Positions 322 through 42,994 of a stretch of DNA of 46,111 bases are shown one piece after another. The stretch's first letter is position 1. Every line of letters starts with the position of its first letter. Made by a program: the position numbers and the translations under genes. This DNA comes from Bdellovibrionales bacterium (GTDB lineage: Bacteria; Bdellovibrionota; Bdellovibrionia; Bdellovibrionales; UBA1609), in the NCBI GenBank assembly GCA_028819305.1, contig JAPPLY010000078.1, positions 1 to 46,111 on the forward strand, read 5' to 3'. The notes beneath the pieces were generated by a model. It saw nothing but the letters and a program-made list of their open reading frames with translations, had not been told where the DNA came from and made no database searches.

Positions 322-490
322 TTATATGGTCATTCCCGTGAAAACGGGAATCCAGTCGCTCTTGCTCTTCAGTAGAGAATAGGATTCAAAAGGGCTTCGG
401 ACATGCGTTTTGCCACAAACGGGAAGGCAAATCGTTGCCTTCCCGTCCCGTGAAAGCGGAAAGCCAGTTCCATACCGTACCGGTATAAAT
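322..490. repeat. Palindromic element copy (intergenic, long form)
   Basis: The left end TTATATGGTCATTCCC matches TTATACCGATCATTCCC at 17641, and the right end reads TACCGGTATAAA. Inside are a hairpin of the form ATTCCC-N8-GGGAAT (332-351) and a second hairpin, GGGAAGGCAA/TTGCCTTCCC (about 420-446). The ATTCCC-N8-GGGAAT arrangement resembles the dRS3 repeat pattern known from Neisseria; that is a resemblance of form only. The region from 158 to 752 contains no other gene I can support. Confidence 0.7.
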
Positions 491-752
491 AAAACGCTAG
501 TCTTAGGTCCTAAATTCTCCTTAAGTCTTAATTTTTTCTCCTTATCTGTCGAAATGAAAATAAGTAAAGAAAATTTTTCTGCTTAAAGTAGCTGATTTTA
601 AGGGTTTTTATATCTGATCGCATTTGACAATTCAGGGTTTAAAAATCCAGCAACTAAGAAGGAACAAATGATGCCCAAGGGGCGCACAAAACCGCTTTTG
701 TTTTTTAGATAGATTTTGAAGGTAAAAAATAAAAAAGGATGGAGAAGGTTAG

Positions 753-1820
753 ATGAATTTCAAAAAGAAAAACAATAATTCTTTTATGCTGAGTAAAAAG
801 ATGCTCGGAAAATCCAAACCGAACTGGTTTATTATTGTGGTTTTTTATACGCTGGCTCTTTTTTTTATACCCTCTTGTGGTTTAGTTAATAGCGGAAATA
901 ATAGTTTTTTATTAGATAGTCAGGTTGGTGACCCGGGGGATGGAAAAACACCTGTTTTAGGTCCTCGTTTACAAGAAAGCCCTGACCTGGCAGATAAAGA
1001 ATGTGAAGGTAATGATCGTTGTGAAGAAGCTTGTAGAAAGATATATGAAGATACAGATTCTTATAAAGAATGTTACGAACTGACTATAGGAGAGGTCTCT
1101 AAAATAGAGGAAGTATTTCATTTTCTTGTGGAATCAGAAATAGACGATTTAGAAGATATTGATGAAGAAGACCTGGAACGATATATAAAAGTGGGTTTAG
1201 ATGGCTGGCGGGATAAAGTGATTCAAAAACAAAAAGACGAAGAGGATCGGAATGAACGATTTCAAAATACTTTTTTTTGGATTGTGGATAAGGAAAGAGA
1301 TGTCATTCCTGTCTTAGAAAAAGAAGACCAGGATAATGAGATTTTAGAAGAGATATTTTTAAGCTATTGTAATATAGGAACAGGTGACACGGCATGTAGC
1401 GGAAATAATAATTATCCTTTGGGTACGAATGCGGATGCTTGCACTACTAGTTCTGCCTTATCATTTGATTATGACTCAGGGTCTATATGTGTGCCGGGTA
1501 ATAAAAAAATCGCTTATATAAGAGAAGAGAAAAACAGAAGCTTATTTTTAGCTTTAGTGGCTGGTGGCCGTGACTTTTTTGAAAGAGCTGCTGAAAATCG
1601 TCGCTTCACCGCTTTTATTTTAGGAAATAAACTGGTTGAGAAGGCTTGCTCTAATAGAGACACTACTTCTTTTGATCAATGTGTGGCGGCTTTTTATTGT
1701 CACCAACAGCATTCCACACATCTGAATCAGGATTTTTTACGGCGCGACGATATAAAGGAAGGGATAGGAAGAGAAATTGATCTTAAAGGTTGTGATGCCA
1801 ATAATCTTGATTCTGTTTAA
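753..1820 (+). CDS. Cysteine-rich lipoprotein, paralogue 1 of a local family
   Basis: This is a predicted lipoprotein of 355 aa. A basic N-terminus is followed by a hydrophobic segment (about 25-40) and a lipobox IPSC with the acylated Cys at residue 42. The mature protein is acidic. It carries a cysteine cluster of the type C-x4-5-C-x3-C-x(~12)-C just after residue 85, and further cysteines near the C-terminus (KACSN...QCVAAFYC). The same spacing recurs in the proteins at 1853 and 6506, so the three are paralogues that probably form the same disulfides. A strong Shine-Dalgarno sequence (GGAGAAGG) precedes the ATG at 753. The gene is followed 32 nt later by its paralogue, so co-transcription is likely. 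No known domain is recognised; a surface or periplasmic role is inferred only from the signal. Confidence 0.8.
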   Translation: MNFKKKNNNSFMLSKKMLGKSKPNWFIIVVFYTLALFFIPSCGLVNSGNNSFLLDSQVGDPGDGKTPVLGPRLQESPDLADKECEGNDRCEEACRKIYEDTDSYKECYELTIGEVSKIEEVFHFLVESEIDDLEDIDEEDLERYIKVGLDGWRDKVIQKQKDEEDRNERFQNTFFWIVDKERDVIPVLEKEDQDNEILEEIFLSYCNIGTGDTACSGNNNYPLGTNADACTTSSALSFDYDSGSICVPGNKKIAYIREEKNRSLFLALVAGGRDFFERAAENRRFTAFILGNKLVEKACSNRDTTSFDQCVAAFYCHQQHSTHLNQDFLRRDDIKEGIGREIDLKGCDANNLDSV

Positions 1821-1852
1821 GAACAGAAACCCTTGGTAGAAAGAGATAAGAT

Positions 1853-3136
1853 ATGTCCTATTATAAAAAAAATATAAGAAGCTCGTTTTTACGAAATATA
1901 CATACCGTGTTTAACCTTCGGTCTCTTTTCCACGAGGTTCGGTTTTCTGGTTTATGTAAATTCCTTCCCAAGGGAAAACAAAGGTTGGATTTGGGAAACT
2001 CCTTACCAGTTTGGTATAAAGGGGCTGGTTGGTGGTTTAAGAGTATTTGTTTAATCGTACTTGTTTTAAGTCTCTTTTCTTGTGGCTTGCTGGATGGGCT
2101 TGGTTCAGCTACACCTAGGTTAAACCTTCAGGATTCTCGTTCAGAGGACGAATCGGCGGGTGTTTTTAATAACCCTTCTGGTCCCCTGGAGTCAGAAAAT
2201 GTTTGTTTTGATAACTCGGATTGTGTCCAGCTTTGTGATTCCATGTTGAACCGCTTTTCGGAGCAGGAAAAGTGTTACGATCATAAAGAAAAAGAGGTGC
2301 AGTCTTTTAGAGATACTTATAATGCCCTGGCTATCGGGAATCCAAGAAAATTAATACAAGTGGATCCAGAAAAAATAGAGAAGTTTCTCATTTTCGGTCC
2401 TGAACTCTGGAAGACCGCTATTAATGGATTTGAAAGAGGAAGGATAGAAGATTGTGAAGCAAGTGATCCAGAGAATCCTCCAGAAGACATTAGAAATTAT
2501 GAAAATTGTAAGTTTGAATACTACTATCAACAAGTGGGATATTGGAGTTCCGGGGCTTCGGCTACTTTAGAGTGGATTGCTAAAAACGATTGGTTATCTA
2601 AACTCATCCTAGAGCACGATGACGATCATATTATTATACAAACTCTTTTAGAGGTCTTGAGTAATGGAGGAAAAGGAGAAGCAGAAGATCGAGAAGAAAA
2701 AAGAGACGCAGGGGAATCAGGATATGATGGAGATAGTATTTGTGATTTAGACAGTGCTGGAGGAGATGGCAAGTTGGATTTAGATAGTCTTCCTACCGGA
2801 GTTCAGGTACCAGGGTCATATCGAGATCATTACCAAGCTTTTGGAGCCAACTGTATTGATGGTAAAAGTTTAAGTTATATGCTTTTAGCTGTGGAAGAGG
2901 ATAATAAAGACTCTGTTAATTTAGGACATCAGGTTTTAGAGGAGCTTTGTAATTCACAAGAAGCTTGTATAAGGTATTTTTACTGCCGCATTAATGATGT
3001 AGATGGGGAGTTAAATAATATAGGAACCGCTCCCACGCCTCCCGCTCCGATACTCACCCCTCTTTTTCTTTATATGAACGACTCGGGCATTAATAACTGG
3101 AACAGAGGGTATAATGACTGTGTTGGATTGTTATAA
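1853..3136 (+). CDS. Cysteine-rich lipoprotein, paralogue 2, with palindromic element in its N-terminus
   Basis: This 427-aa protein is paralogous to the products at 753 and 6506: ENVCFDNSDCVQLCD repeats their cysteine cluster, and the C-terminal part has the LCNSQEACIRYFYC arrangement. The lipobox LFSC places the lipidated Cys at residue 77, unusually far from the ATG at 1853. The extra length is explained by a palindromic element at 1900-2020, which reads in frame as residues about 17-56 ahead of the hydrophobic segment (64-76). Either the protein has a long cytoplasmic pre-signal extension or translation begins downstream. The element-derived part contains the local motif TTCCCAAGGGAA. Beyond the stop lies a decayed second copy of the gene's 3' end. 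The function is unknown. Confidence 0.75.
   Translation: MSYYKKNIRSSFLRNIHTVFNLRSLFHEVRFSGLCKFLPKGKQRLDLGNSLPVWYKGAGWWFKSICLIVLVLSLFSCGLLDGLGSATPRLNLQDSRSEDESAGVFNNPSGPLESENVCFDNSDCVQLCDSMLNRFSEQEKCYDHKEKEVQSFRDTYNALAIGNPRKLIQVDPEKIEKFLIFGPELWKTAINGFERGRIEDCEASDPENPPEDIRNYENCKFEYYYQQVGYWSSGASATLEWIAKNDWLSKLILEHDDDHIIIQTLLEVLSNGGKGEAEDREEKRDAGESGYDGDSICDLDSAGGDGKLDLDSLPTGVQVPGSYRDHYQAFGANCIDGKSLSYMLLAVEEDNKDSVNLGHQVLEELCNSQEACIRYFYCRINDVDGELNNIGTAPTPPAPILTPLFLYMNDSGINNWNRGYNDCVGLL
1900..2020 (+). repeat. Palindromic element inside a lipoprotein gene
   Basis: The left end ATACCGTGTTTAACC and right end ACCAGTTTGGTATAAA match element termini seen elsewhere in the window. The interior has TTCCCAAGGGAA, also seen as TTCCCAAGG in the trmB and lgt copies and as CCCCAAGGGAA in the hydrolase copy. 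The copy keeps the reading frame of the surrounding gene open. Confidence 0.65.
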
Positions 3137-3205
3137 CATACTTCTTTTTATATGAACGCTTCTGGAGTTAATAACTAGAACCGAAATTATAATAACTGTA
3201 TTTTT
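3063..3205 (+). repeat. Tandem duplication of a gene 3' end (78-bp period)
   Basis: The last roughly 65 nt of the lipoprotein gene (from 3063) recur, diverged, from 3142. Landmarks are TATGAACG at 3073 and again at 3151, followed by TTAATAACTGGAAC versus TTAATAACTAGAAC. The offset is 78 nt (26 codons). The second copy lies after the stop codon, so it is an untranslated, decaying tail duplicate. Confidence 0.75.
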
Positions 3206-3343
3206 TGAATTTTCAGGATTCACAGTCGGTATTTTATTCTAAAAACTGGCAAGTTTTAAAATCTTTCTCGCTGTGATTTTTAAAAGAACTTCCAAAAAGA
3301 TTAAAAGCTTATGAACTAGTGATGCTTAACCTGTGTCCCTTTT

Positions 3344-4165
3344 TTAGGAACGATCCAAAGAAATCATCTTGTTTATTTTGGAAATAATAGCAGACAGTTT
3401 GAGATCAGAAATTTTATTTCTCCTAAGAAAACTTTCCCACCTTATTTTAAGCTGTTCATTAGGTTGGGGAATCATTTTTAATTTTGTATTTCTATGTTTC
3501 ATGGTCTTATGGATAGCAGTCTTTAAAAGATTTTTGTCCATTATACTTTCTTCAATGAGACGGTAACAATCATAAAAATCTTTCATCCGGCTGTTTGTCT
3601 CTCCTAATTGCAAAATAGCTTCTAACTTTTCTGAAAAAATATACTCTGGAGTATAGCTTCTTAGTTTGACGCTTTTTTCAAACAAAGGCTCTTTTGCAGT
3701 CATAAGCTTTATCTCTAAAGGTTTAGAAACAAAAACATCTCCTCCCCCAACATCAATAGATACCTTATTTTTAATTTGCCCTAATTGCCCTTGAATATAC
3801 ACACGGTAACTAGGATATTGCTTATGTTCAAAAGGAAGTTGATTTACCTCTACTTGAGAGAAAATAAAATTATCGCCTGTATTTATTGAAGCAATGCCCT
3901 CCATTGTTTTTTTGATTTTTTCGATATTGTTTTTAACTTGGGTAAAAAGAAAATCAATGTCTTTTGTTTTTCTGCCTAAATCCAAAAACTGGGCTAAACA
4001 CATACCACCTTTAAAAATCAACTTGTCAGCATAAACGGATTTCCCAATGCGGACAAGAAACCGCTCAAGGAAAAGCATCTCTAACAATGTATTAAAAGGA
4101 GTATTCAATCTCTTTGAAATATCCTTAAGCTTATGCTTTATACTTTGTTCAGTAGATTTACTCAT
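3344..4165 (-). CDS. AbiEii/AbiGii-family nucleotidyltransferase toxin
   Basis: This 273-aa protein is the toxin of a type IV AbiE-like toxin-antitoxin system. The nucleotidyltransferase signature is clear: FKGGMCLAQF (51-60) provides the GG motif, and RKTKDIDFLF provides the two aspartates D69 and D71 for metal binding. The later segment EYIFSEKLEAIL is the conserved helix with E and K seen in this family. Family members transfer nucleotides onto RNA (tRNA acceptors for some homologues) and cause reversible growth arrest; that activity is family knowledge, not shown here. The start codon overlaps the stop of the upstream antitoxin gene by 4 nt (ATGA), typical of translational coupling. The length is close to that of known AbiEii proteins and no key residue appears lost. 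Confidence 0.88.
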   Translation of the reverse strand: MSKSTEQSIKHKLKDISKRLNTPFNTLLEMLFLERFLVRIGKSVYADKLIFKGGMCLAQFLDLGRKTKDIDFLFTQVKNNIEKIKKTMEGIASINTGDNFIFSQVEVNQLPFEHKQYPSYRVYIQGQLGQIKNKVSIDVGGGDVFVSKPLEIKLMTAKEPLFEKSVKLRSYTPEYIFSEKLEAILQLGETNSRMKDFYDCYRLIEESIMDKNLLKTAIHKTMKHRNTKLKMIPQPNEQLKIRWESFLRRNKISDLKLSAIISKINKMISLDRS

Positions 4166-4746: not shown

Positions 4747-4793
4747 GTAACAAATAACCCTTAAATATATTAAATGAGGGTATTTTGTTACAT
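4745..4793. promoter_or_regulatory. Palindromic candidate operator of the abiE-like operon
   Basis: Two 17-nt arms, ATGTAACAAATAACCCT (4745-4761) and AGGGTATTTTGTTACAT (4777-4793), are inverted copies with 15 of 17 positions matching, separated by 15 nt. The left arm overlaps the antitoxin start codon. AbiEi proteins are known to bind long inverted repeats upstream of their own gene, so negative autoregulation here is the natural inference. Confidence 0.7.
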
Positions 4794-5036: not shown

Positions 5037-5113
5037 CTCGCTGTGATTTACTTGGATAGAGCGGGAAACGGCGGGAAAGTCCGGGAAAAAAGCACGGCGG
5101 GTTGGTGTTGATT
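5037..5113 (+). repeat. Dispersed ~78-bp repeat, copy 1
   Basis: The repeat starts CTCGCTGTGATTTACTT and continues through GGGAAACGGCGGGAAAGTCC and AAGCACGGCGGG to GTGTTGATT. It recurs almost unchanged at 8790-8877. A short piece of its start (TCTCGCTGTGATTT) also occurs near 3268. It is more GC-rich than its surroundings, and no gene is evident in it. Confidence 0.75.
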
Positions 5114-5239
5114 GTACTGGATTATTCCAGTTTTTTACTGTTTTGGGATTTTCCTTTTTTCAGCCTTCAGTCCCTATTTTAAACCAAGAGGCAAAACCCT
5201 ATTTTATCATAAAGTGAAACTTTCAGTCATATTATGCTC

Positions 5240-5395
5240 AAGCTTGTCCCCGTGGAAACGGGGAGCCGAACTCGCTTTTGCCCCCCTATTCTCTTCTGAA
5301 GAACTTATCTCTATGCTTTATGCTTTGCCTTTCCGTCCTGCGAGAGCCTCGTCCCACGAAAGCCCTGTCATTTCCGCGAAAGCGGGAATCTAACT
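5240..5395. repeat. Palindromic element copy (hairpin cluster)
   Basis: GTCCCCGTGGAAACGGGGAGC forms a hairpin and is nearly identical to GTCCCCGTGAAAACGGGGAGC near 39679. At the other end, TTTCCGCGAAAGCGGGAAT forms another hairpin. The terminal TATACC motif is not clear here, so this is a degenerate or composite copy. Confidence 0.5.
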
Positions 5396-5494
5396 CACTT
5401 TTCCCCTGTAAAGCTTATAAGCTATAAAAAGATAGATTTTTCTATTTTTTTATAGTATTATTTATTTGTATGGATTGGTAAAAGGAGGTATTAA

Positions 5495-6147: not shown

Positions 6148-6155
6148 AAAAACTC

Positions 6156-6300
6156 TTATACCGACTTGTTTGACTCCCATTCCCCTTTTCCGCGGAGGCA
6201 AGGTGTGCGAGGGACAAGAATTTTACACCGGCTCAGTTTACAAACCGCTATCGAGGGTACAACTGAGAGGACCTGCACTCGGGTTTCAACATCCGTCATC
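6156..6300. repeat. Palindromic element copy, diverged
   Basis: The left end TTATACCGACTTGTTTGACTCCC is the family's terminal signature. It is followed by TCCGCGGAGGCAAGG and, further on, ACACCGGCTCAGTT. The right end is not resolved. The sequence to the next gene at 6506 contains nothing else recognised. Confidence 0.5.
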
Positions 6301-6505: not shown

Positions 6506-7840
6506 ATGAATATATGGAATAAGTGGTTGGCTTATATTTCACCGGTAAAATCCTTTTTACATCGCATCACTAAGAAATATGCAAACTCGGGGCTTTATTT
6601 TCTCTTGGGGAAAAAATCACAAAAACTTAGGAAACAGTTTATGTGGAGACAGGGGGCAAGCTCCATTAATATATTTAAAAAATATATAGGGCTTATCTTT
6701 ATTTGTGTGATGGGGATCTTTTTTGTTAGTTCTTCTTTTTTATCTTGTGCTCCCGGCTTTGACGATCCGGGTTCTCAAACTTCCAATAATGATGATGACG
6801 ACGACGATGATGATGATGACGATGATGAGGGAAGAAGAAGTGAGGACTGTGAAGCGGATAGCGATGATTTATGTAAAGACGATGAAAGTTGTGTAAGAGT
6901 TTGTGAGCATATTTATGCAGATCATGCCGAGGTAACAGAGTGTAAAAGCAGAAGCGAAAGACAAGTGGGCCGAATGGATAAAATTCATGATCTCCTTCTG
7001 GAAAAATTTGACAGTGTCAGTGAATTAGAAAGCAATTTAGAAAGTATTTCCGAAGAGGATGGAGATGTGAGTAAAGAGGACTTTATATGTTATCTGGAAA
7101 TCAGTGGCGACAAATGGATTGATGCAATGAAGGGCGGGTTGGGTAAAAAATTACCGGAGGATGAAACACCTCGTCGTGCCGAACAGGTAAACAGGTTGAT
7201 GGCAGTTTTAAAATGGTTTATTGAAGAACAAGAAATGACGGAGATTCTTAGAGAGGATATAGATGATGGAGATGATATTTTAGAGGCTTTACTTGTAGAA
7301 TTAGAAGATCGTGTGGCGAGGGGTTGTATTAAAGGAACATTTACTGTTCCTACTGTTGGTACTGACGATAAATATCTGTGGAATTTAGCTACTTCTGGTA
7401 ATGACCTTGAAATACAGTATTATAGTAGTGGAGCACCAAGTTCCGGTGCTATTGCTTTTGATACCAGCAAAAATGGAAAGATTTATAATGCTCTTTCCTG
7501 CCATTCTATAGACGGACGTTATAATGTGTTTTCTTATTCTGCTTTTAGAGACAAAAATGAGGTTATGTTTGAAATGGCTTTTGAGTTATTGACTAAAGTT
7601 TGTGATGTGGAAGAAAAGCCCAGAGGCCAGGAAGATAAAGCCTGTGCCAGAGCTATGATGTGTTGGACAGCCTGGCAGAATGCAAATGGGGGCAGTGATG
7701 GATCTAAATCTCCTAGTGATACAGCCAGTGGGGATTTTTGGGATATGGCTGAAAAACACAAAAGCGATTTAGATGGAGATAAAACCAGATATAATAATTG
7801 CAGTGCGGAAAATTTTGCCGAGTTCTTCGTATCCGACTAA
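6506..7840 (+). CDS. Cysteine-rich lipoprotein, paralogue 3, with a 12-aspartate run
   Basis: This 444-aa protein is paralogous to those at 753 and 1853. DLCKDDESCVRVCEHIY reproduces their cysteine cluster, and the C-terminal part has ACARAMMCWTAWQ and YNNCSAENF. The hydrophobic segment (about 60-77) and lipobox FLSC put the lipidated Cys at residue 81. An in-frame ATG at 6641 (MWRQGASS) would give a conventional signal length, so the start at 6506, although preceded by GGAAGC, is uncertain. Directly after the lipobox is a run of 12 Asp codons (6791-6826), made of mixed GAT/GAC and prone to slippage. The 3' end of the gene is duplicated downstream. Confidence 0.75.
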   Translation: MNIWNKWLAYISPVKSFLHRITKKYANSGLYFLLGKKSQKLRKQFMWRQGASSINIFKKYIGLIFICVMGIFFVSSSFLSCAPGFDDPGSQTSNNDDDDDDDDDDDDEGRRSEDCEADSDDLCKDDESCVRVCEHIYADHAEVTECKSRSERQVGRMDKIHDLLLEKFDSVSELESNLESISEEDGDVSKEDFICYLEISGDKWIDAMKGGLGKKLPEDETPRRAEQVNRLMAVLKWFIEEQEMTEILREDIDDGDDILEALLVELEDRVARGCIKGTFTVPTVGTDDKYLWNLATSGNDLEIQYYSSGAPSSGAIAFDTSKNGKIYNALSCHSIDGRYNVFSYSAFRDKNEVMFEMAFELLTKVCDVEEKPRGQEDKACARAMMCWTAWQNANGGSDGSKSPSDTASGDFWDMAEKHKSDLDGDKTRYNNCSAENFAEFFVSD

Positions 7841-8047
7841 TCAGAATCTTTTTATATTGATTTGCATTTTATAATAATCCCATTCTGACTATAATAGTTG
7901 TAAAGCAGAAAGTTTCTCTGACTTCTTCTAATCAAATTAAAGATATAATAATTGTAGTGCGGAAAACTTTACCGAGTTCTTCGTATCCAACTAATCAAAA
8001 TTTTTTTATATTGATTTGAGAGTTTTATAATAATAATCCCATTCTGA
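7787..8047 (+). repeat. Gene-tail duplication, three copies after a lipoprotein gene
   Basis: The segment AGATATAATAATTG...CCCATTCTGA at 7787-7888, which includes the lipoprotein stop codon, recurs with few changes at 7941-8047 (AGATATAATAATTGTAGTGC, ACCGAGTTCTTCGTATCCAA). A shorter diverged copy (7889-7940, TATAATAGTTGTAAAGCAGA) lies between. The copies carry the last codons of the gene but are not translated with it. Confidence 0.85.
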
Positions 8048-8197: not shown

Positions 8198-8203
8198 TTC
8201 TTA

Positions 8204-8789: not shown

Positions 8790-8877
8790 CTCGCTGTGAT
8801 TTTGCTGTGATTTACTTTGGTTGAGCAGGAAACGGCAGGAAAGTCCGGGAAAAAGCACGGCAGGTTTGTGTTGATTT
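8790..8877 (+). repeat. Dispersed ~78-bp repeat, copy 2
   Basis: This matches 5037-5113: TGTGATTTACTTTGGTTGAGC, then GGAAACGGCAGGAAAGTCC, AAAAGCACGGCAGG and TGTGTTGATT. An extra TCGCTGTGATTT duplication lies at its start. The sequence between 8597 and 8789 contains only a weak palindromic-element piece (CCTCCCAGTCGAAACCGAAG; TATCGGTATT near 8730). Confidence 0.75.
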
Positions 8878-10774: not shown

Positions 10775-11683
10775 TTATTCTTTTTGTAGTCTAGTCACTT
10801 TAAATTGTGGTTTTCTTTTTTCTAAAAAAGCGCGCATTCCCTCTTTAGAATCTGGAGATTTGAATAATTGACCGAAGGCTTCTGCTTCTTTTTGCAGACG
10901 ATTTTTTAGAGTTAAGTTATCTTCTTCATGTATCAGTTTTTTTGACTTTATTACACTTAAAGGGCTTCTTTGTTTTATATCCTCTGCTAGTAAAAAAGCG
11001 GTTTTCATTAGTTTCTCCGGGGAGGTTATTTTGTTACCCAGACCCATTGTAAAAAATTCCCGGGCGGAATAAATCTTTCCAAAACAAATAATCTCTTTAG
11101 CTTTATACATGCCTACAGCTCGTACTAACCTTTGTGTGCCTCCAAAGGCCGGCAGCAGACCGAGGGTGACTTCAGGCAAACCCATTTTTGCAGCTTCACT
11201 TATTACAAGGATGTCACAAGCTAAAGCTAATTCCATTCCTCCACCTAAGGCAAAACCGTTTATGGCTGCGATGACAGGAATAGGAAGAGACTCTATTAAT
11301 GAAAACACTTTTTGACCTTGTTTTGAAAAAGCTATCGCTTGTTTCTGATCGAAATTCACCATTTCTTTAATATCCGCTCCAGCTACAAAACTTTTTCCAG
11401 CTCCTGTAATAATTAAAACATGTAAGTTTTTTTCTTTTTTATACTGATCTTGTTTGATCCCCGCTTTCGCGAGGACAGGTTTTGTGGTTTCTGTGAGCTT
11501 TTTATCAAGGGGCAGTGGAGTTAGGAATCCGCCATTTTCTGACTTGTTCGATATAATTTGTTCTGTAAAAATTTCTAACTCTTCTAATACTTTAGAGTTT
11601 AAAGCGTTTAAGGCACGGGGTCGGTTGATAGTGAGTACGGCTACCTTATTTGATAATTCAAATTGTAAATATTGAAATTTCAT
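10775..11683 (-). CDS. Enoyl-CoA hydratase with an in-frame palindromic-element insertion
   Basis: This is a crotonase-fold hydratase of 302 aa; family members are about 260. The oxyanion-hole and catalytic regions are intact: FVAGADIKEM, then ALGGGMELALACD with the first catalytic Glu, and GLPEVTLGLLPAFGGTQRL with the second. It would hydrate 2-enoyl-CoA, here plausibly methacrylyl-CoA in valine breakdown given the neighbouring hydrolase and dehydrogenase. Residues about 43-82, which are absent from typical family members, are encoded by a palindromic element (11439-11556) and include KPVLAKAGIKQDQYKK. They fall in the surface loop between LEELEIFTEQI and LHVLIITGAG. The frame is preserved. 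The start at 11683 has only a weak ribosome binding site. Confidence 0.88.
   Translation of the reverse strand: MKFQYLQFELSNKVAVLTINRPRALNALNSKVLEELEIFTEQIISNKSENGGFLTPLPLDKKLTETTKPVLAKAGIKQDQYKKEKNLHVLIITGAGKSFVAGADIKEMVNFDQKQAIAFSKQGQKVFSLIESLPIPVIAAINGFALGGGMELALACDILVISEAAKMGLPEVTLGLLPAFGGTQRLVRAVGMYKAKEIICFGKIYSAREFFTMGLGNKITSPEKLMKTAFLLAEDIKQRSPLSVIKSKKLIHEEDNLTLKNRLQKEAEAFGQLFKSPDSKEGMRAFLEKRKPQFKVTRLQKE
11439..11556. repeat. Palindromic element inserted in-frame in the enoyl-CoA hydratase gene
   Basis: On the plus strand the copy starts TTATACTGATCTTGTTTGA, followed by the hairpin core CCCCGCTTTCGCGAGG. It ends GACTTGTTCGATATAA, giving imperfect inverted termini. It is 118 bp, lies wholly inside the coding region and adds about 40 residues. 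Confidence 0.8.
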
Positions 11684-11831
11684 ATATTTATCTTAACATT
11701 GTGTAGGTACACAATTTACACAAATATTAACTATTGCTTTTCCCTCTATATTCTTTTGATGGAGGGTGTAAGTATTCTTTACATCTGCAAGATATCACAT
11801 TTCAAATCGGATCGGTATAAAAATAGATGCT

Positions 11832-13145
11832 TTAAAGCTCTTGTAATGGATTTATCCAACCAGGATCGTAGCAAAAATATTGTTGTATTTTCTCCTCTGT
11901 GAGCAACTCTACTGAGTTCGGTTTCCACACGGGGGTGCTGTTTTTTTCCAATAGTAAAGCTCTGACCCCTTCAGAGAATTCAGATCCTCGAGCAAAATTA
12001 AGAGCTAAAACCAAGTCAGTTTGAAAAACCTCTTTTAAAGTTTTGTTTCTAGCTCTTTTTAATTGTTCGCAGATGATTCCGGCGGAAGTAGGAGACCCCT
12101 GGAGAAAAGCTTTTCGGTTTTTCTCCCATTTTTTATCTTTTTCTATAAGGCTGTCATAAAATTTTTTATGAATATTTTTTATACTAAAACAATGTAAAGT
12201 TTCTGGTCGTACTTGAGTGTCTGTTGGTCTTATTTTTTTAGAGTTTATAGAAGTAGGTTCTCGTAAAAAAGGAGATAAACTCTCCAGGTTGAGTTTGTTT
12301 GATTTTAATAAGGATGTAATGTTATCTTTTTGTTTTTCAATCCAATTTTCCGCAAGTATATCAGCCTGGTTTGAGCTTTCTGGCCTTCTCTTCGGAACAG
12401 AAGTCCCCAAGGGAACAGAAGGCTTCTGCAAGGGTGCCATTTTTATATTGGTTCGATATGTGTTCGTCTTTTGAAGTTTTTTTAAAATCAAAGTCATCTC
12501 CTCTTTATTTGTAAAAAAAGAGGAGATAAGATTTTGAAGTACTTTTTCTTTTTCTGTATTTTTAAAATAAAAGTTAGCCATGCCCAAGTTTTGAGCCTCT
12601 TGATAATTGATACGGCAGCCAGTTAAAGCCAGGTACAAACCTATTCCCTCTGGCAAGCGGCTTAAGGTGTGGCTCACTCCCACATCCGGAAAAAAACCAA
12701 TATTTATTTCTGGCATAGATAAAGAAGAATCTTCTGTCATTATCTTATGAGAGCTAGCTAGAAAAAGCCCTAATCCCCCTCCCATAATAAAACCATGTCC
12801 CCAGGTAATGATAGGAAAAGGATAGGTGTGCATAAGGTAATTCAGACGGTATTCATTTTCAAAAAAAGTTTGAACAGCCTCTCCCGGATCTTTATTGTTC
12901 TTTCGGGCTAGTAGAATGGCCGAATAAATATCTTTTATATCTCCTCCGGCACAAAAAGCTTTGTCTCCTTCTCCGTGTAAAAATACAGCCGACAAATTAG
13001 GGGTTTTTTTCCATTGATTGAGCTTATTTTTTATCTGTAAAATCATTTCCAGATCTAAAGCATTTAAAGCTGCCGGTCGATGGAGTTTTATTTCCGCCAG
13101 GAAAGAACCATCGGGTTTGGCATGTTCTTTAAAAATGACCTTCAT
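11832..13145 (-). CDS. 3-hydroxyisobutyryl-CoA hydrolase-like crotonase, with palindromic-element insertion
   Basis: This 437-aa protein belongs to the HIBCH branch of the crotonase superfamily, which releases 3-hydroxyisobutyrate from its CoA ester in valine degradation. Diagnostic parts are CAGGDIKDIY, ENEYRLNYLMHTYPFPIITW, GGGLGLFLASSHKI, SMPEINIGFFPDVGVSH and, near the end, EFSEGVRALLLEK-(x5)-WKP. The family is about 350-380 aa. Residues about 229-263 derive from a palindromic element (12357-12459). A second, unclear insert may lie around 12180-12230. Both fall between the crotonase core and the C-terminal helices. The gene is followed by the enoyl-CoA hydratase gene and preceded by the acyl-CoA dehydrogenase gene, all on the same strand with 140-150 nt gaps. 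Confidence 0.85.
   Translation of the reverse strand: MKVIFKEHAKPDGSFLAEIKLHRPAALNALDLEMILQIKNKLNQWKKTPNLSAVFLHGEGDKAFCAGGDIKDIYSAILLARKNNKDPGEAVQTFFENEYRLNYLMHTYPFPIITWGHGFIMGGGLGLFLASSHKIMTEDSSLSMPEINIGFFPDVGVSHTLSRLPEGIGLYLALTGCRINYQEAQNLGMANFYFKNTEKEKVLQNLISSFFTNKEEMTLILKKLQKTNTYRTNIKMAPLQKPSVPLGTSVPKRRPESSNQADILAENWIEKQKDNITSLLKSNKLNLESLSPFLREPTSINSKKIRPTDTQVRPETLHCFSIKNIHKKFYDSLIEKDKKWEKNRKAFLQGSPTSAGIICEQLKRARNKTLKEVFQTDLVLALNFARGSEFSEGVRALLLEKNSTPVWKPNSVELLTEEKIQQYFCYDPGWINPLQEL
12357..12459. repeat. Palindromic element inserted in-frame in the hydroxyisobutyryl-CoA hydrolase gene
   Basis: The plus-strand left end TATATCAGCCTGGTTTGA matches TTATACTGATCTTGTTTGA, and the right end TATTGGTTCGATATG mirrors it. 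The interior has GAACAGAAGTCCCCAAGGGA, close to the trmB copy (AAACAGAAGTTCCCAAGG). The copy is about 103 bp and adds about 35 residues. Confidence 0.7.
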
Positions 13146-17381: not shown

Positions 17382-17534
17382 TTATACCATTATAGAAGCC
17401 CCCCCTTCGAATCTCTCTTTTTTTGGAAAAAAAAGAAGAGGACCAAAACCTTATCCCCAAGAGACTTGTTTTCGTCCACCGCTTTCGCGGGAGCAAAGTC
17501 GCGAGGATAGGGAGTCAAACCCGGACTGATATAA
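17382..17534. repeat. Palindromic element copy (intergenic)
   Basis: The left end is TTATACCATTATAGAAGCC. The core hairpin ACCGCTTTCGCGGGAGC lies near 17478, and the right end is GTCAAACCCGGACTGATATAA. Both ends match copies inside genes (compare the hydrolase copy). It occupies the promoter-side spacer of the VWA-like lipoprotein gene. Confidence 0.7.
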
Positions 17535-17640
17535 ATCCATCTGTACTTAAAAATCTCATCGGCAGGTTTTAGCTTTTTTATTACATTAAAAAAAAATCAG
17601 GATATATACTAAGTCGTGCTTACAAGACACTTGTCTTATA

Positions 17641-17766
17641 TTATACCGATCATTCCCTACTCCCCCCCTTCGCGAAAACAAGTTTCGTGGGGATAAGGTT
17701 TGAAAATTTCGGGTTTAAAGGCTTAACTAAAAAGGGGACGGGAAGCCACCTAAGTGGTTTTTCGTT
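17641..17766. repeat. Palindromic element copy with trailing hairpin (intergenic)
   Basis: The left end TTATACCGATCATTCCC is followed by CCCTTCGCGAAAACAAG. A hairpin unit ACGGGAAGCCACCTAAGTGG then resembles ACGGAAAGCCACTAAAGCGG at 25641. The right terminus is not clear. It fills the spacer between the VWA-like lipoprotein gene and maf. Confidence 0.5.
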
Positions 17767-18613: not shown

Positions 18614-18885
18614 AGTATATTGATCTTATTTGATCCCCGCGGAAGCGAGGACCTAGTAGCTATGGAGGAGAGTGATTTATTAGTAAATGTGTCCTTCAGT
18701 AAAACAGATTTGCCTTTTTCGGGACGGCCCTTGTCTTTCTTGGTAGAAAACCAAGGGCCTTGGACCCTCAACCGGCAAACTGTTTTCCTGAATGAATACA
18801 GTTAGACGAGAAGGCAATGATTTGCCTTCCCGTCCCTGCGAAAGCCCTGTCATCCCCGCGGAAGCGAGGATCGAGGGGTTTTATA
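18614..18885. repeat. Composite of palindromic elements (intergenic)
   Basis: The left end TATATTGATCTTATTTGATCC runs into CCCGCGGAAGCGAGG. Two further hairpins follow: GAAGGCAATGATTTGCCTTC (18811-18830) and CCCTTG...CAAGGG (18729-18755). CCCTGTCATCCCCGCGG and TTATACTGAATGGGG close the region. It separates maf from the divergent serS and may influence both promoters. Confidence 0.6.
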
Positions 18886-20193: not shown

Positions 20194-20201
20194 AAGAGTA
20201 G

Positions 20202-20270
20202 TTATACTTTTCCTGTTTGATATCCGCTCCCGGGCTTTCGCGAGCTTCACGGGAACAAGATTTTCTGATG
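20202..20270. repeat. Palindromic element copy downstream of serS, partial
   Basis: TTATACTTTTCCTGTTTGATATCC, followed by the hairpin CCCGGGCTTTCGCGAGC, matches the left half of the family. It begins 8 nt after the serS stop. It may serve as transcript-end structure, although no T-run follows. Confidence 0.55.
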
Positions 20271-20394
20271 GTTCTTTATCTTGCCCCTTTTTTATTCATA
20301 GAAAAATGTTTTAGAACAAAATGGATTTTTTTAATGAGGGTGACCATTTATACTTTGGATCAATATAAGAGCTTGTTTTTTTTATTTATAGTTA

Positions 20395-20490
20395 TATACT
20401 AACCTTGTTTGAATGTTGTTATTTCTGTCAATTTCTTCCCAAGGATGAACGGAGTTCGGAGGGCGCAAATTCCATACCAGATCGGTATAC
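20395..20490. repeat. Palindromic element copy immediately upstream of lgt
   Basis: The left end TATACTAACCTTGTTTGAATG and right end ATACCAGATCGGTATAC are family termini. The interior has TTCTTCCCAAGGATGAACGG. The frame is open through the element into lgt, so it could encode an N-terminal extension if translation starts at the ATG at 20445. Confidence 0.7.
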
Positions 20491-20501: not shown

Positions 20502-21560
20502 ATGGCAGCATGGACTTATTTCCATAATTTGGATCCTTTTATTATTCATTTTACAGGCAACTTTGGTCTTCGTTGGTATTCCATGGCTTATATCATGGGA
20601 TTTTTATCGGCCTACTATTTAATTTGTTGGTTAATACATAAAAAGATCACCCCCTTATCGAAGAAAGATGTAACTGATCTTATTGTTTGGGTGGCTTTCG
20701 GAGTTATTTTAGGGGGCCGATTGGGTTATGCTCTATTTTACGATCAAGAGCTTTTAACAAAATTTGATTCAGCCTTTCCTTATTGGGAGTTTCTTAAAAT
20801 TTATCACGGAGGATTAGCTAGTCATGGGGGTATTATAGGCTTGATTGTAGCTGCTGCCTTGTTCGCCCGAAAACGGGGCTTTTCTACATGGCACTGCCTG
20901 GATTTATGCGCTTTAGGTGGCATAGGTGTTTTCTTTGGAAGAATAGCTAATTTTATTAACGGAGAGTTATTTGGGAGGGTTATTGAAGGGAAGACTTTAT
21001 TAGCTGTACAGTTTCCCCAGGAAATGCTTTTGTGGGTGTCTCGAAAAAAGATAGAGTATTTACAAGATTTAGATAAAGCTGTTTCTGTTTTGAAATCGGG
21101 CACAAGTGCCGACACCTGGCGAAATTGGATTTATCAGTTTGAATCTACAGGTGAGTATAGAAGACAAATTTATTCTCATATCTATTCTTTGATGCAGGCT
21201 TGTGAAGATGGAAATCGGGAGGTGATTCAGGCTTTAAAGGAAGTGATATCCTATCGCCATCCTTCTCAAATTTATCAGGCTATTTTGGAAGGCTTATTGC
21301 CGTTTTTAGTGGCCTGGTTTTTATTTGTACAGAATCGGTCTAATCAAAAAAAATATTTAAAACCAGGAATAATCGGGGGTGTTTGGGCTTTATCGTATGG
21401 AGTTATGCGTGTATTGGGTGAGCAGTTTAGAATGCCAGATGCGCACTTAGGTTTTCAAGCTTTGGGTTTGACTCGAGGACAATGGCTTAGTGTGTTTATG
21501 TTAGTATGTATTGCCGGTTATTTCTTTTTAGTTTTTAAAACTCAAAAAACCAAAAAGTAG
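20502..21560 (+). CDS. lgt: Prolipoprotein diacylglyceryl transferase
   Basis: This inner-membrane enzyme transfers diacylglycerol from phosphatidylglycerol to the lipobox Cys of prolipoproteins. It serves the many lipoproteins of this window. LRWYSMAYIMGF, YHGGLASHGGIIG and RIANFINGELFGR carry the conserved His, Gly and Arg/Asn of the family; RHPSQIYQAILEG and the last helices are present. The frame is open from 20409, but the upstream part is a palindromic element, so the ATG at 20502 (MAAWTYFHNLDPF) is chosen because the known fold starts there, although no good ribosome binding site precedes it. About 90 residues separate NGELFGR from RHPSQ, against about 40 in E. coli. The extra loop is charged and helical. 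Confidence 0.9.
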   Translation: MAAWTYFHNLDPFIIHFTGNFGLRWYSMAYIMGFLSAYYLICWLIHKKITPLSKKDVTDLIVWVAFGVILGGRLGYALFYDQELLTKFDSAFPYWEFLKIYHGGLASHGGIIGLIVAAALFARKRGFSTWHCLDLCALGGIGVFFGRIANFINGELFGRVIEGKTLLAVQFPQEMLLWVSRKKIEYLQDLDKAVSVLKSGTSADTWRNWIYQFESTGEYRRQIYSHIYSLMQACEDGNREVIQALKEVISYRHPSQIYQAILEGLLPFLVAWFLFVQNRSNQKKYLKPGIIGGVWALSYGVMRVLGEQFRMPDAHLGFQALGLTRGQWLSVFMLVCIAGYFFLVFKTQKTKK

Positions 21561-31319: not shown

Positions 31320-31362
31320 TTTTATAACGAACCGATATAATCTAATTTGACCCTGTGTAAAT

Positions 31363-31480
31363 ATATCAATCTTGTTTGAAAATTTCAGATTTAAAGACTT
31401 AATTACCCAGGAAAGGATCGAAAAGTTTAGGGAAAAGCTTGTTCCCGTGGAAGAGGGGATAAGCCCTAATAGGTGTTCTG
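31363..31480. repeat. Palindromic element copy between argS and ddl
   Basis: TATATCAATCTTGTTTGAAA matches the family left end, and AGCTTGTTCCCGTGGAAGAG is an internal hairpin arm shared with copies at 5240 and 39594. An element right-end motif, AACGAACCGATATAATC, lies at 31326-31342, before this copy, suggesting two overlapping remnants. Confidence 0.5.
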
Positions 31481-38533: not shown

Positions 38534-38546
38534 CCCCTCCCACTTC

Positions 38547-39164: not shown

Positions 39165-39287
39165 TTTACTAAAATCCTGTTTTATATATTTCAGTTACAA
39201 TGTAGCTTCTATGTTCAAAGAGTCTTGGTTTTTCTCTTTTTTTCATGGTGCTTTTTATATGTGCAAAATAAGGGAAGAGGGAAAAGT

Positions 39288-39335
39288 GGGTTTAAAGCCT
39301 CTTTTGAGAGATAAAAAATCCGAAATCCGAATATT
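39288..39335 (+). repeat. 48-bp dispersed repeat upstream of the Rpn gene, copy 1
   Basis: The segment from GGGTTTAAAGCCTCTTTTG to CCGAAATCCGAATATT is identical over 48 nt to the reverse complement of 46058-46105. It lies 123 nt upstream of the Rpn start. Confidence 0.9.
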
Positions 39336-39593
39336 ACGAATACTTTATGCAGATATGGTTTTAAGATGAAAAGAATTACATTTTGATACTAATAAGATAT
39401 TATTACTGAGACCAGAAAGTGAAGATTGGTGTGAAAAGTTTTCACTATTTTTAAATAATTCCAACTGTGTTTTTAAAAATCCTTTTGACACTAAGTATTA
39501 GTTTTGTTTTGTTGACTCCTGTTTTGCATATACAGGGTTTCCAGTGATCTGCTTTAGATATTAATAATAAATCAGTTAGGAAATCTCCTCTTC
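39336..39593. other. Spacer, nothing recognised
   Basis: This is AT-rich sequence between the 48-bp repeat and the palindromic element. No gene is supported. Confidence 0.4.
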
Positions 39594-39722
39594 AGAGGTT
39601 CTCTTCCATTGGAGAGAAGCTTCCCGTGGGGAGAAAAAAAAGAAACACATGGAACGAACTTTGTCTCTGTGAAGCTTGTCCCCGTGAAAACGGGGAGCGG
39701 AGATCAAACCGGATGGGTATAA
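39594..39722. repeat. Palindromic element copy upstream of a lipoprotein gene
   Basis: GTCCCCGTGAAAACGGGGAGC (39679-39699) is a hairpin shared with 5250. The right end GATCAAACCGGATGGGTATAA matches the trmB copy (CGAATGGGTATAA when read on the coding strand). The left part has AGCTTCCCGTGGGGAG. It ends 27 nt before the next start codon. Confidence 0.65.
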
Positions 39723-39749
39723 GAAACAATTAAACCTATAGGGGGTGTA

Positions 39750-41381
39750 ATGAAATTATCATCTATGAATAGTTATCCTATTTTTATAATACTATTTATC
39801 AGTGTTTTATGTACTTTGGCTTGCAATAACAGAGGTAGCCATCAAGAGCAAAATAGTCAGAGAGAAAGTCAGGCAGCCCCTCCTACTGTAACACTTCCTG
39901 AACCTGGTGTAGGAACCAATGGTTCTCGTTTTAAATTAACAGAATTAGCAGCGGCGGAAAAAAAGATTTTTCAAATAAATGATACTATTGTGTTCACGGG
40001 TTTAGAAGAGCAGATGAAGAAACAAAAGTTTTTAAAAGAAGTGCAACTGAGAGTAAAACTACATTGCATTTTTGATACAAAAAAAGTGCTTATTAAGGAA
40101 TTTACAAGAGAATTACAAACATCCATTCCTCTTATTGAACTATTATCACAAGAAGCCTTGTTGCCTCAAGAAAGCAATTATCCTTCTTGTGGATTTTCTT
40201 TTAAAGCTGAGCATAAAGGAGGAGCAGCTCATCACTTTGAAATTCCTCCTCTACCTATTGTGGATTACGATAAGCATCGTTTTATTCAACTATTGGATTC
40301 ATCAGGAAAAATAAAGGATCCCTTTAATTACATTTTTATAAATGAACTATCCCGTTACTGGATGGACACTGGAGAGCAAGAACCAATGAATGATCTAAAG
40401 TTAACATGTAGTGACTTCTCTTTATCTTTACCTATCCGTCCCCAACAATTTATTCCTCTTTCCGCTTTTTCATTTGATAGTTTAGAAGAAAGTATATGGG
40501 AAAAAGTAAATAAAGAAAATCCTGTTCAGTTATGTCGTATATTTGGATACAAAGCAGACACATTGGTGGGAGTGTCTTCTGTTTTTCATCTCATGTACCC
40601 ACAACCTTCTCTTAGAGTGGGTATAGATGATGATTTATTTAAGAATAAAGAGCCATCTTTTTACTTCGCAATTATGGAACCGGATGGCAAAAAAGTAAAG
40701 GAACCCCGTCCTGATTTCCCCATTTATACTTATAGTATTAAAAACCCTCAGCCTTATCCTGTACATATACTTATTGAAAACTACAAAGAAAGAGAACTAT
40801 ATTTACGATATTACGGACTATATCACAGAGAAGGAAAAAGTTTTTACTCCAAAACGGAAGAGCTTTTTAGCTTAGGTAGTATTTATACTGTAAAAGGGCA
40901 ATCAGCTCAAAATAAAACAAAAATGGGTACGGTTATAACACTAGAACCAAAAAGTGAAATTTCTTTTTCTGCATTAATAACAGAACCGTTTTGGCTTTGT
41001 AGTAATTCACGTGATGGCACTCTTACTCATTGGTTAGGTACGGTGGTAAAGTTTCCTGATTTAAGAATATATCAATTACTTTCCGATCAAATAGAGACGA
41101 TTCCTTTATCAAAAAATATTATGTATGAGTTAGACACCCAGGCTGATGAGCATTTTGATATATTAACAGATTATCTTAAAAAGAATTCCCGTGAAAAGTT
41201 TCGTAATATCTTTTTTAGGAAAGGGCTTTGTAGCGGAACGATCATAGCGAAAAGTAAAGATCCTATTATTGAACTGTATGGGCCTAAACCAAGACTCAGA
41301 TGGATTGATTTTACTCCTGTTTATCCAGGTCATTTCAATAATACAGATAGCTCTATTTCCAAAATATTGAACAATAGGTAA
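39750..41381 (+). CDS. Large hypothetical lipoprotein
   Basis: This 543-aa protein has a signal peptide with lipobox TLAC (lipidated Cys25). A Gln/Ser/Asn-rich linker follows (about 26-50). The rest is a long, mostly beta region with no repeat structure noticed, e.g. KFLKEVQLRVKLHCIFDTKK, PYPVHILIENYKERELYLRY and FPDLRIYQLLSDQI. Few cysteines are present, unlike in the other local lipoproteins. GGGGGTG precedes the ATG. I do not recognise a domain. It is large enough for a surface-exposed multi-domain protein. Confidence 0.78.
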   Translation: MKLSSMNSYPIFIILFISVLCTLACNNRGSHQEQNSQRESQAAPPTVTLPEPGVGTNGSRFKLTELAAAEKKIFQINDTIVFTGLEEQMKKQKFLKEVQLRVKLHCIFDTKKVLIKEFTRELQTSIPLIELLSQEALLPQESNYPSCGFSFKAEHKGGAAHHFEIPPLPIVDYDKHRFIQLLDSSGKIKDPFNYIFINELSRYWMDTGEQEPMNDLKLTCSDFSLSLPIRPQQFIPLSAFSFDSLEESIWEKVNKENPVQLCRIFGYKADTLVGVSSVFHLMYPQPSLRVGIDDDLFKNKEPSFYFAIMEPDGKKVKEPRPDFPIYTYSIKNPQPYPVHILIENYKERELYLRYYGLYHREGKSFYSKTEELFSLGSIYTVKGQSAQNKTKMGTVITLEPKSEISFSALITEPFWLCSNSRDGTLTHWLGTVVKFPDLRIYQLLSDQIETIPLSKNIMYELDTQADEHFDILTDYLKKNSREKFRNIFFRKGLCSGTIIAKSKDPIIELYGPKPRLRWIDFTPVYPGHFNNTDSSISKILNNR

Positions 41382-41559
41382 GTGCATGATACTTTAAGCT
41401 GACTTTGATAGGAGTTAACTTGTTGTTATGACTGTGAAAAATAGGTATTTTGTTGGTTTCCATATTTCAGAGAAGAAATTTGGGGTGTTGACCCATATTG
41501 TCTTTTTTTTTAGAATAATGGGACACAAAGTTCCGACTGGTAATAAGAGAGGGGTCAAT

Positions 41560-41784
41560 ATGGATATCTTAAGCCCAATAGGGAATATCGTTTTAGGAGC
41601 AGGATCATCTATAGTTTTGATCGTTTTGTTTTTCCTAAAAAGTTCTTGGAGAATAATTAGTGATTTTGCAAAATTAAAGGCTGAAGTTTGTAATTTAAAA
41701 GAAAATCAAAAACAAATAAGAGTGGAAATAAATCAAATAAGAAGCGAGATATTTCCTACTATAATACAAAAAATAAAGGAATAA
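41560..41784 (+). CDS. Small single-pass membrane protein with coiled-coil tail
   Basis: This 74-aa product is read from ATG 41560, preceded by AGAGGGG; the longer frame from 41428 lacks a ribosome binding site at the right distance. Residues about 8-28 (IVLGAGSSIVLIVLFFLKSS) form a membrane helix. The rest is a Lys/Glu/Gln-rich helix (LKAEVCNLKENQKQIRVEIN) that would form a coiled coil. The next gene starts 2 nt after its stop, so the two form an operon. No family is recognised; size and context resemble small phage or plasmid accessory proteins. Confidence 0.55.
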   Translation: MDILSPIGNIVLGAGSSIVLIVLFFLKSSWRIISDFAKLKAEVCNLKENQKQIRVEINQIRSEIFPTIIQKIKE

Positions 41785-41786
41785 AA

Positions 41787-42002
41787 ATGGAAGATAAAAC
41801 TTTCGTAAAAGAATGGGATTCTGAAAATAAAATGAAAATAAATTTTATTAAAGGAAACGGATCTCTTATAACAATAGAAATGAAAAAGAACACTCCTTAT
41901 GAAAAAGAAATGGATGAATTATCTAAAATGTTTTCAAATAGAAGATTAGATTCTTTAGTACTACAAGTTTTAAAAGATAAAGGTTTTCAAGAACAAACTT
42001 AG
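41787..42002 (+). CDS. Small hypothetical protein, partner of the coiled-coil protein
   Basis: This 71-aa protein begins MEDKTFVKEWDSENKMKINF and ends VLQVLKDKGFQEQT. Two short strands are followed by helices (EKEMDELSKMFSNRRLDSLV). There is no membrane segment. It follows the membrane/coiled-coil gene after 2 nt, so the two are co-translated. The function is unknown, and no known toxin-antitoxin family is apparent. Confidence 0.55.
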   Translation: MEDKTFVKEWDSENKMKINFIKGNGSLITIEMKKNTPYEKEMDELSKMFSNRRLDSLVLQVLKDKGFQEQT

Positions 42003-42090
42003 TCCATATCCCAGTCATATTTACTTTGATAAACAATAAATATAAGATGCTAAGCTGTATTAGTGCTAGTTATGACTTAATCTTGTCTTG

Positions 42091-42140
42091 CTAAACGGGA
42101 AGGCAAGTTGTTATCTTCCCGTCTCGCTAAAGTGAGAATC
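42091..42140. repeat. Hairpin of the GGAAGGCAA family with Z-arm
   Basis: ACGGGAAGGCAAGTTGTTATC, then TTCCCGT, forms an imperfect hairpin like those at 419-447 and 18809-18834. It is followed by CTCGCTAAAGTGAGAATC, a second hairpin. It lies between the small-gene operon and trmB. Confidence 0.55.
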
Positions 42141-42199
42141 TCATTCTGGTCAGAAAGCTCAAAACAACTGGAAAATGCGCCAAGCAAAGCCCTTTGGGT

Positions 42200-42994
42200 T
42201 CATTTGATATATTTTAGATAATGAATGGCTTGTTTTTTCCTGATAAAAATTTTTTCAAACTGAGTTATACCCATTCGATTCTGGATCCTCGCTTTCGCGA
42301 GGACAGGGTTTTCCAATCGTCTCTTTTTTTCTCCAAAGGAAACAGAAGTTCCCAAGGAAAAAGAGTCTTTAGAGGGCACAATCTCCTGACCGGTTCGGTA
42401 TAAATCATCAGAAAACCTAACTTCTTTATAAGAACTATTTTTGAAAATGGTATGAATTTCTTGAAAATACTCTTGGTGATCTGTTTTAATTTCTATAAAA
42501 GAGTTTTTTTCCTGAAGCTGGTAAAGTGTTTTAACAAAATCCGGTTTTATTAAACGGTGTTTATGGTGTCTTTTTTTAGGCCAGGGATCTGGAAAGTGAA
42601 TATAAATATTATTTAGCTCTTTAGGGGCAAAAACATCTCCTAACATTCGAGCATTATACCTGATTGTTTTTGCATTTAAGCATTCACTTTCTTTTATTTT
42701 CCGGGTGGTTTGAATCAAAGGTTTATATTTAAGTTCCATTGCTATAAATAAGCGATCTTTATTGTGAGTAGCTATAAAAGAGAAAAAATCCCCCGTTCCT
42801 GGTCCAATTTCTAGATCTAACTTTGTGTTTTTAGGTGCATTAAAAACCTGTGTCCTCCACTTACCTTTAAACTGTAAACCATCTTCTTCATCGAAGACCC
42901 ATGAGGAGTATTTATTATACATATCTGTTACATAGGAACTAGGATGTAAAAGAGACTTACTGTGAACTAATTTAGTTTGGGCGCCCTTGGACAA
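42200..42994 (-). CDS. trmB: tRNA (guanine-N7-)-methyltransferase with in-frame palindromic-element insertion
   Basis: This enzyme makes 7-methylguanosine at tRNA position 46. LEIGPGTGDFFSFIA binds SAM, and IHFPDPWPKKRHHKHRL is the family hallmark. FVKTLYQLQEKNSFIEIKTD and the end ITQFEKIFIRKKQAIHYLKY complete the fold. TrmB is usually 210-240 aa; this one is 264. The excess is residues about 197-244, lying between DDLY and ITQFEKIF and encoded by a palindromic element (42265-42404). That segment includes GTSVSFGEKKRRLENPVLAK, of which PVLAKA recurs in the enoyl-CoA hydratase insert. The ATG at 42994 overlaps the end of aceE by 28 nt, so the two may be translationally coupled. Confidence 0.92.
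   Translation of the reverse strand: MSKGAQTKLVHSKSLLHPSSYVTDMYNKYSSWVFDEEDGLQFKGKWRTQVFNAPKNTKLDLEIGPGTGDFFSFIATHNKDRLFIAMELKYKPLIQTTRKIKESECLNAKTIRYNARMLGDVFAPKELNNIYIHFPDPWPKKRHHKHRLIKPDFVKTLYQLQEKNSFIEIKTDHQEYFQEIHTIFKNSSYKEVRFSDDLYRTGQEIVPSKDSFSLGTSVSFGEKKRRLENPVLAKARIQNRMGITQFEKIFIRKKQAIHYLKYIK
42265..42404. repeat. Palindromic element inserted in-frame in trmB, most complete copy
   Basis: The plus-strand left end is TTATACCCATTCGATTCTGG, followed by the perfect hairpin CCTCGCTTTCGCGAGG. The middle motif is AAACAGAAGTTCCCAAGG, and the right end is GACCGGTTCGGTATAAA. Length 140 bp. The ends are inverted copies, and the whole copy is translated on the minus strand as part of TrmB. Confidence 0.85.

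Follow-up and report, generated by a model that had tools for sequence, protein, structure and literature searches.

The window, the whole stretch of 46,111 nucleotides analysed here (contig C18 of a Bdellovibrionales MAG of 1.98 Mb in 88 contigs, 93% complete), was found in a repeat scan to carry related palindromic copies, and its host enzymes are two with the crotonase fold and TrmB. A full element of 118 nt lies in frame on the minus strand at 11439-11556 (profile E=4.9e-24) in the enoyl-CoA hydratase gene ech (ORF 10775-11683, minus strand), to which it adds 38 amino acids. Another full element, of about 106 nt, is in frame at 12356-12461 (minus strand, E=2e-7) in ech2 (ORF 11832-13145, minus strand), whose product is an ECH_2/3-hydroxyisobutyryl-CoA hydrolase with Pfam ECH_2 matches in two stretches. 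A full element of 139 nt is in frame at about 42264-42403 (minus strand, E=3.4e-22) near the C-terminus of trmB (ORF 42200-42994, minus strand), where the TrmB family match stops at residue 202, ahead of the insert. In addition, a full element at 1896-2019 (minus strand, E=1.8e-17) is antisense to, and in frame in, the N-terminal part of the lipoprotein-like ORF 1853-3136 (plus strand), and a decayed element at 6557-6674 (plus strand; E=1.1e-8, and E=3.6e-5 with the covariance model R1 described below) is in frame in the N-terminal part of ORF 6506-7840 (plus strand). The initial annotation had counted at least four copies wholly inside open frames, and the copies found in frame within genes are those in ech, ech2, trmB and the N-terminal parts of the lipoprotein-like ORFs at 1853 and 6506.

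Elsewhere in the window, a full element of 97 nt at 20394-20490 (minus strand; E=1.9e-19, 90.7 bits with R1) lies directly upstream of the probable start of lgt, the true start being probably the ATG at 20502, and an element at 39570-39722 (plus strand, E=1.8e-11) precedes ORF 39750-41381. Intergenic copies are a type-2 element with the TTTGAAAATTTCAGATTTAAAG core at 31362-31474 (plus strand, E=9.7e-9), a decayed element at 17382-17535 (plus strand, E=1.3e-6), and a short or decayed element at 6156-6243 (minus strand, E=0.0064; 35 bits with the seed profile). Parts of elements, all on the minus strand, were found at 168-246 (E=2.5e-5), 20201-20275 (a hairpin half, E=6.9e-5) and 18616-18651 (a terminus with a hairpin, E=4.4e-4). 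A decayed element with the perfect terminus GATCGGTATAA lies at 11739-11820 (minus strand, E=0.0042), and 17641-17690 (minus strand, E=0.041) is the terminus of a type-2-like composite repeat with an exact TTATACCGATC. Among the sixteen places at which copies had previously been listed, elements were present at 1900, 6156, 11439, 12357, 17382, 20395, 31363, 39594 and 42265; only part copies were present at 20202 and 18614, the matches at 322, 5240, 13291 and 17641 were weak (E about 0.014-0.041), and 36903 gave no profile match. The copies at 6557-6674 (inside ORF 6506-7840) and 168-246 had been missed.

Several other features of the window are recorded here in their own right. ORFs 753-1820, 1853-3136 and 6506-7840 are three paralogous-looking, fast-evolving lipoprotein ORFs; two of the three hold an element in the pre-signal region, and their 3' tails are near-duplicates (3064-3202, 7787-8018). 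REP-like palindromes, often adjoining elements, are found at 417-456, 18804-18843 and 42093-42132 and at 326-355, 5369-5402 and 18839-18872; their sequences, AAACGGGAAGGCAA...TTGCCTTCCCGT and CATTCCCGTGAAAACGGGAATCCAG, belong to a separate repeat family or to a longer composite. A 54-nt inverted repeat (96%) joins 39282-39335 with 46058-46111, and its second arm is the contig end, where the assembly probably broke at this repeat. A 51-nt direct repeat (5040-5090 and 8804-8854, 90%, GCTGTGATTTACTTGG...AAAGTCCGGGAAAAA) is intergenic and unrelated to the element. The 893-aa ORF at 42967-45648 shows weak similarity to the homodimeric pyruvate dehydrogenase E1 and transketolase families (129 bits versus a cut-off of 859.9) and is an unusual member.

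Each element runs from TATACCGAACCGGT to ATCAAACCAGATTGGTATA and is imperfectly palindromic. The common lengths, counted as N-TA...TA-N, are 97, 118 and 139 nt, with a maximum of about 190. Addition of a 21-nt hairpin module (GTCCCCGCGGAAGCGGGGA-like) to the 97-nt form gives the 118-nt form, and still longer forms carry further hairpin modules of the same kind. The inner hairpin CCTCGCTTTCGCGAGG, which had been described as shared by the copies, is an optional module that occurs in the 118-nt and longer forms and is missing from the 97-nt form. The consensus, TTATACCGAACCGGTATGGAAATTGCGCCCTTCAAACTC...CCCTTGGGAAA...ATCAAACCAGATTGGTATAA, folds end to end; of its six frames, three to four are free or almost free of stops. 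A second type, forming a minority, differs in its GTTTGAAAATT core but shares its left end and overall plan with the main type. In palindromy, size (about 100-150 bp) and terminal inverted repeats the elements have the form of Rickettsia palindromic elements (RPE). The folding z-scores of single copies ranged from +0.6 to −4.0, four of six folded copies forming strong hairpins (z −2.6 to −4.0); since RNA folding is not uniformly strong, no function at the RNA level is argued.

The covariance model R1 was built from a seed alignment of twelve copies, several of them genic. It matched at least 136 places at E<=0.1 in the host genome (a lower bound, 150 of 2470 candidates having been scored). At E<=1e-4 only one of 141 genomes of the order, the host genome itself, was positive, and no element was found in the other 140. 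In a search of 40 relatives with R1, one genome of the same family as the host (G024) gave five matches and a congener (G001) gave two weak ones, the remainder giving none. An iterated profile, applied to the stretches around the R1 matches rather than to a tiled genome, yielded 208 distinct matches, 132 of which were near full length; these counts refer to one MAG, with element copies sampled through a model. The terminus TTATACCGATC occurred 30 times genome-wide versus 4 for a reversed control, and GGTTCGGTATAA with at most one mismatch occurred 131 times versus 20, an excess of 6-7 times over the control. A test profile built without any window copy recovered nine window copies at E<=1.3e-6 and about seven more window parts at E from 2.5e-5 to 0.02, whereas the best match in simulated sequence (43 windows, first-order Markov, whole-genome amount) had E=0.7. 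The palindromic family proposed in the initial annotation is real by these measures. It is larger than could be seen from the window, and it is confined to one genome. No Rfam family matched the window, and a literature search, mostly outside subscription journals, gave no relevant paper on Bdellovibrio palindromes.

For sixty of the 132 near-full copies (about 45%) the surrounding frame stays open over 35 residues or more on each side, and for 40 when at least 60 residues are required; about half of the copies are intergenic. The length L of the element satisfied L mod 3 = 1, that is, a net length of 3n, in 59 of the 60 genic copies versus 36 of the 72 others, and in 39 of 40 in the stricter set; this statistic is partly circular, since requiring both flanks to be open in one frame selects for 3n, and the independent test of the frame rule is the comparison with congeners given below. 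The frames used were S0 (31 copies), S2 (19), A2 (9) and A0 (1). S1 and A1 were never used among the 60, and stop codons were commoner there than in the frames that are used. Hosts supported by Pfam were BirA, YicC, HflX, a carboxylesterase, PrpD, GcvT, RimM, AroE, PurH, GSDH, GlmU, LdcA, RNase R, RsmA, GuaA, MutY, CysS and TilS; RNase Y was named from its sequence, Pfam backing the HD domain only. These core enzymes are intact and of full length, and they match Pfam well around the insert, so that in-frame insertion in many unrelated protein genes, as known for RPE, is found here as well. A typical inserted peptide is LYRTGIEFAPSELRSPLGKSLQKPQNLVPAEAGIKQDQY. The lgt copy and several N-terminal copies were not accepted as truly internal: either the true start probably follows them, or stops occur in the joined flanks. 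A second peptide derived from a repeat, SFPRKRESS, is apparently present in the GuaA ORF (L089) and is typical of translated REP hairpins.

Orthologues lacking the insert were present at about two dozen sites in both available congeners (G001 and G002), the Bdellovibrionales MAGs IP30a_bin.14 (JANQSP01) and IP30b_bin.7 (JANQSX01). The ech product has exactly 38 residues more than both congeners, with no other gaps there, and its insert was absent from orthologues elsewhere. Outside the insert, host orthologues were roughly 50-90% identical, and two concatenated-protein queries matched G001 and G002 as paired flanks with the element skipped. Codon alignment of the joined flanks left no residual length in 27 of the 44 comparisons (25 rows), the remaining comparisons involving flank indels, one row that repeats another copy, and a few ambiguous cases (RsmA, LplA). 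The net gain was 31 amino acids for the 97-nt form or 38 for the 118-nt form in ech, RNase Y, YicC, PurH, GuaA and GlmU. The flank alignment thus gives a net gain of L−4, which amounts to 31 or 38 codons and agrees with a change from NTAN to N-TA-element-TA-N. At the predicted target the congener dinucleotide was TA in 21 of 44 comparisons, as at the ech site in G002, against a background of 3.1%, 8.0% and 9.8% by codon phase. The target is TA and is duplicated on insertion, which is the TA target with 2-bp duplication of MITEs. TrmB lay outside this comparison, and ech2 had a congener match on one side only. At the GSDH and BirA sites (L256, L231), G002 has its own extra segments of 17-21 residues, e.g., LQSNEDAKSVKTVEQISIT. 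These segments face the element in the host's own genome and possibly represent another insert family or indel-prone loops.

The ends of the elements point to IS630. G024 contains one IS630-family transposase gene (NF033545, 208 bits versus a cut-off of 100), and directly past its stop codon lies TCAAACCGGATCGGTATA, the exact reverse complement of TATACCGATCCGGTTTGA. The ends of three short palindromes in G024 (L061, L063 and L065) are TATACCGATCCGGTTTGA, an 18/18 match to the IS630 end that is known from the right end alone, the left end of this IS630 copy having been lost. The element ends in the host genome matched the same 18-mer at a mean of 12.6 (left) and 13.2 (right) positions, compared with 6.05 for random TA-anchored sites. 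Terminal inverted repeats that match an IS630 element, as expected of MITEs, are therefore present. On the other hand, the host MAG (93% complete) yielded neither an IS630 (DDE_3) transposase nor any protein related to the G024 transposase, and hence no autonomous partner for the elements. Since many MITEs persist after their partner is gone, this lowers the claim of present mobility and not that of origin. The 18-mer was absent from viral contigs, and IS630 elements carried by plasmids of Vibrio, Enterobacter and Rhodovastum had at best a TATACC-like end with a different repeat, so a general IS630 kinship should not be over-claimed. As a separate observation, the few short palindromes of G024 (L061, L063, L065 and L286) carry the local IS630 right end, and the IS630 there is 5'-truncated; these palindromes are a possible ancestral stage of the family. 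From its ends and target, the family is best read as IS630-derived MITEs, and an IS630 transposase would move the elements in trans.

It is very unlikely that the elements are instead true members of RPE acquired by horizontal transfer. They share the size range, the palindromy and the in-frame habit with RPE (PMC2229807, PMC10969869), but no element was detected at E<=1e-4 in other genomes of the order, the IS630-like ends are common to a genome of the same family, which argues for a home-grown origin, and the host belongs to Bdellovibrionales, not to Rickettsiales. On present evidence the family is probably not a member of RPE, its host lying in another phylum.

The inserts are probably translated without splicing or bypass and probably near-neutral. 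In the AlphaFold model of the ech product, the crotonase core has pLDDT >90 and insert residues 48-84 are mostly below 50. The model fits a disordered loop that separates two elements of the core, and the low pLDDT of the insert is expected anyway for a segment without homologues in the alignment. It is very unlikely that the inserts are cut from the RNA, or that ribosomes skip them as they do the bypassing elements of yeast mitochondria: bypassed palindromes in coding regions are known elsewhere (PMC6649704), and the strong hairpins of four of the six folded copies would suit such a process, but bypass or splicing needs neither the 3n length nor the open frame of 59 of the 60 genic copies. 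S1 and A1 also hold more stops than the frames that are used. It is similarly improbable that the inserts are functional segments under positive selection, for example in regulation or host-associated life. Open frames are indeed kept in many conserved enzymes; however, copies occur in S0, S2 and A2, so that the peptide changes with frame and orientation, a disordered structure is predicted for the ech insert, and the congeners manage without it. Finally, it is highly improbable that these are ordinary intergenic REP-type palindromes, the genic ones being pseudogenes or annotation artefacts. About half of the copies are intergenic and the hairpin module CCCCGCGAAAGCGGGG resembles widespread REP hairpins, but this reading is already refuted for the genes tested by the intact full-length hosts, their good Pfam matches around the insert and the orthologues that align outside it. 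No Y1 transposase (PF01797), the mark of a REP/RAYT system, was found in the host genome.

We therefore regard the elements as very probably lineage-specific, non-autonomous MITEs with IS630-type ends, a duplicated TA target and in-frame genic inserts. Insertion at TA duplicates the dinucleotide, converting NTAN into N-TA-(TACC...GGTA)-TA-N. With a net length of 3n and stop-poor frames, the host gene would often keep one continuous frame, and an insertion within it would add 31-62 residues. The surviving copies would be those in tolerant surface loops, others having been purged or being intergenic. An IS630-family transposase, since lost or else missing from the MAG, may have mobilised the elements in trans. 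The initial annotation had suggested a separate family that acquired the in-frame habit of RPE, and the genome-wide excess of the termini, the 3n net length of the genic copies, the empty sites in both congeners and the absence of the ech insert from orthologues elsewhere support this suggestion; the TA target with its duplication, the IS630-type ends and the scale of the family were beyond what that annotation could show. We conclude that the habit of RPE probably evolved independently in an IS630-derived MITE family. In a broader sense, it seems likely that the in-frame habit arose outside Rickettsiales, from IS630, in a parasite whose DNA itself has been moulded (modules of 3n, frames poor in stops and the TA target) and for which coding sequence is a regular habitat, and that, during the lifetime of the genus, translated inserts came to be spread over the core proteins of a single Bdellovibrionales species with a small genome.

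So far, palindromes inside genes have mostly been regarded as something peculiar to Rickettsia and Wolbachia, moved by an unknown agent. The habit is now seen in another phylum, in a burst that can be dated by two congeners without it, with both target and duplication defined and the transposase family named. Two questions follow: the mechanism by which such elements move, and the means by which proteins tolerate random inserts of 31-62 residues. About two dozen natural insertion experiments, each with insert-free orthologues, are available. In practice, the family also accounts for unexpected inserts in proteins predicted for this clade.

Among the systems described previously, RPE (Ogata et al. 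2000, 2002) are presented in the cited accounts as palindromic elements of about 100-150 bp with an open frame of their own, and they resemble the present family in lying in frame in many unrelated conserved genes whose enzymes tolerate the inserts (PMC2229807, PMC10969869). They differ in phylum and in that TATACC IS630-type ends and TA duplication are found here; a review table marks the target duplication of RPE as unknown (PMC2229807, PMC10969869). In one genome, 60 of 132 copies are genic here, compared with the 19 reading frames that the review gives for RPE. WPE (Ogata et al. 2005) are in-frame palindromes in addA, addB and priA, generally without stops, and are thus likewise in-frame palindromic inserts in core genes (PMC4224334). 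In contrast to the present family, they belong to an alphaproteobacterial endosymbiont, and the account of them gives no transposase link (PMC4224334). RUP of Streptococcus pneumoniae is a short non-autonomous palindrome with TA ends that is thought to be moved by IS630 (PMC2229807). Because of its TA duplication and IS630-type ends, the present family is grouped with TA-type MITEs such as RUP; unlike it, RUP is intergenic and has stops in all six frames (PMC2229807). ERIC/RU-1, RU-2, the 107-bp Correia element and the QMITEs of Coxiella are also TA-type MITEs with open frames and occasional in-frame gene fusion (PMC2759123, PMC2229807, PMC5896051), but they are mostly intergenic or involve gene-end fusions and hypothetical ORFs, rather than the dozens of internal insertions in core enzymes seen here. 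The palindromes of G024 (L061, L063 and L065) have TATACCGATCCGGTTTGA ends close to those of the present elements, whereas they are few in number, 65-87 bp long and different in core.
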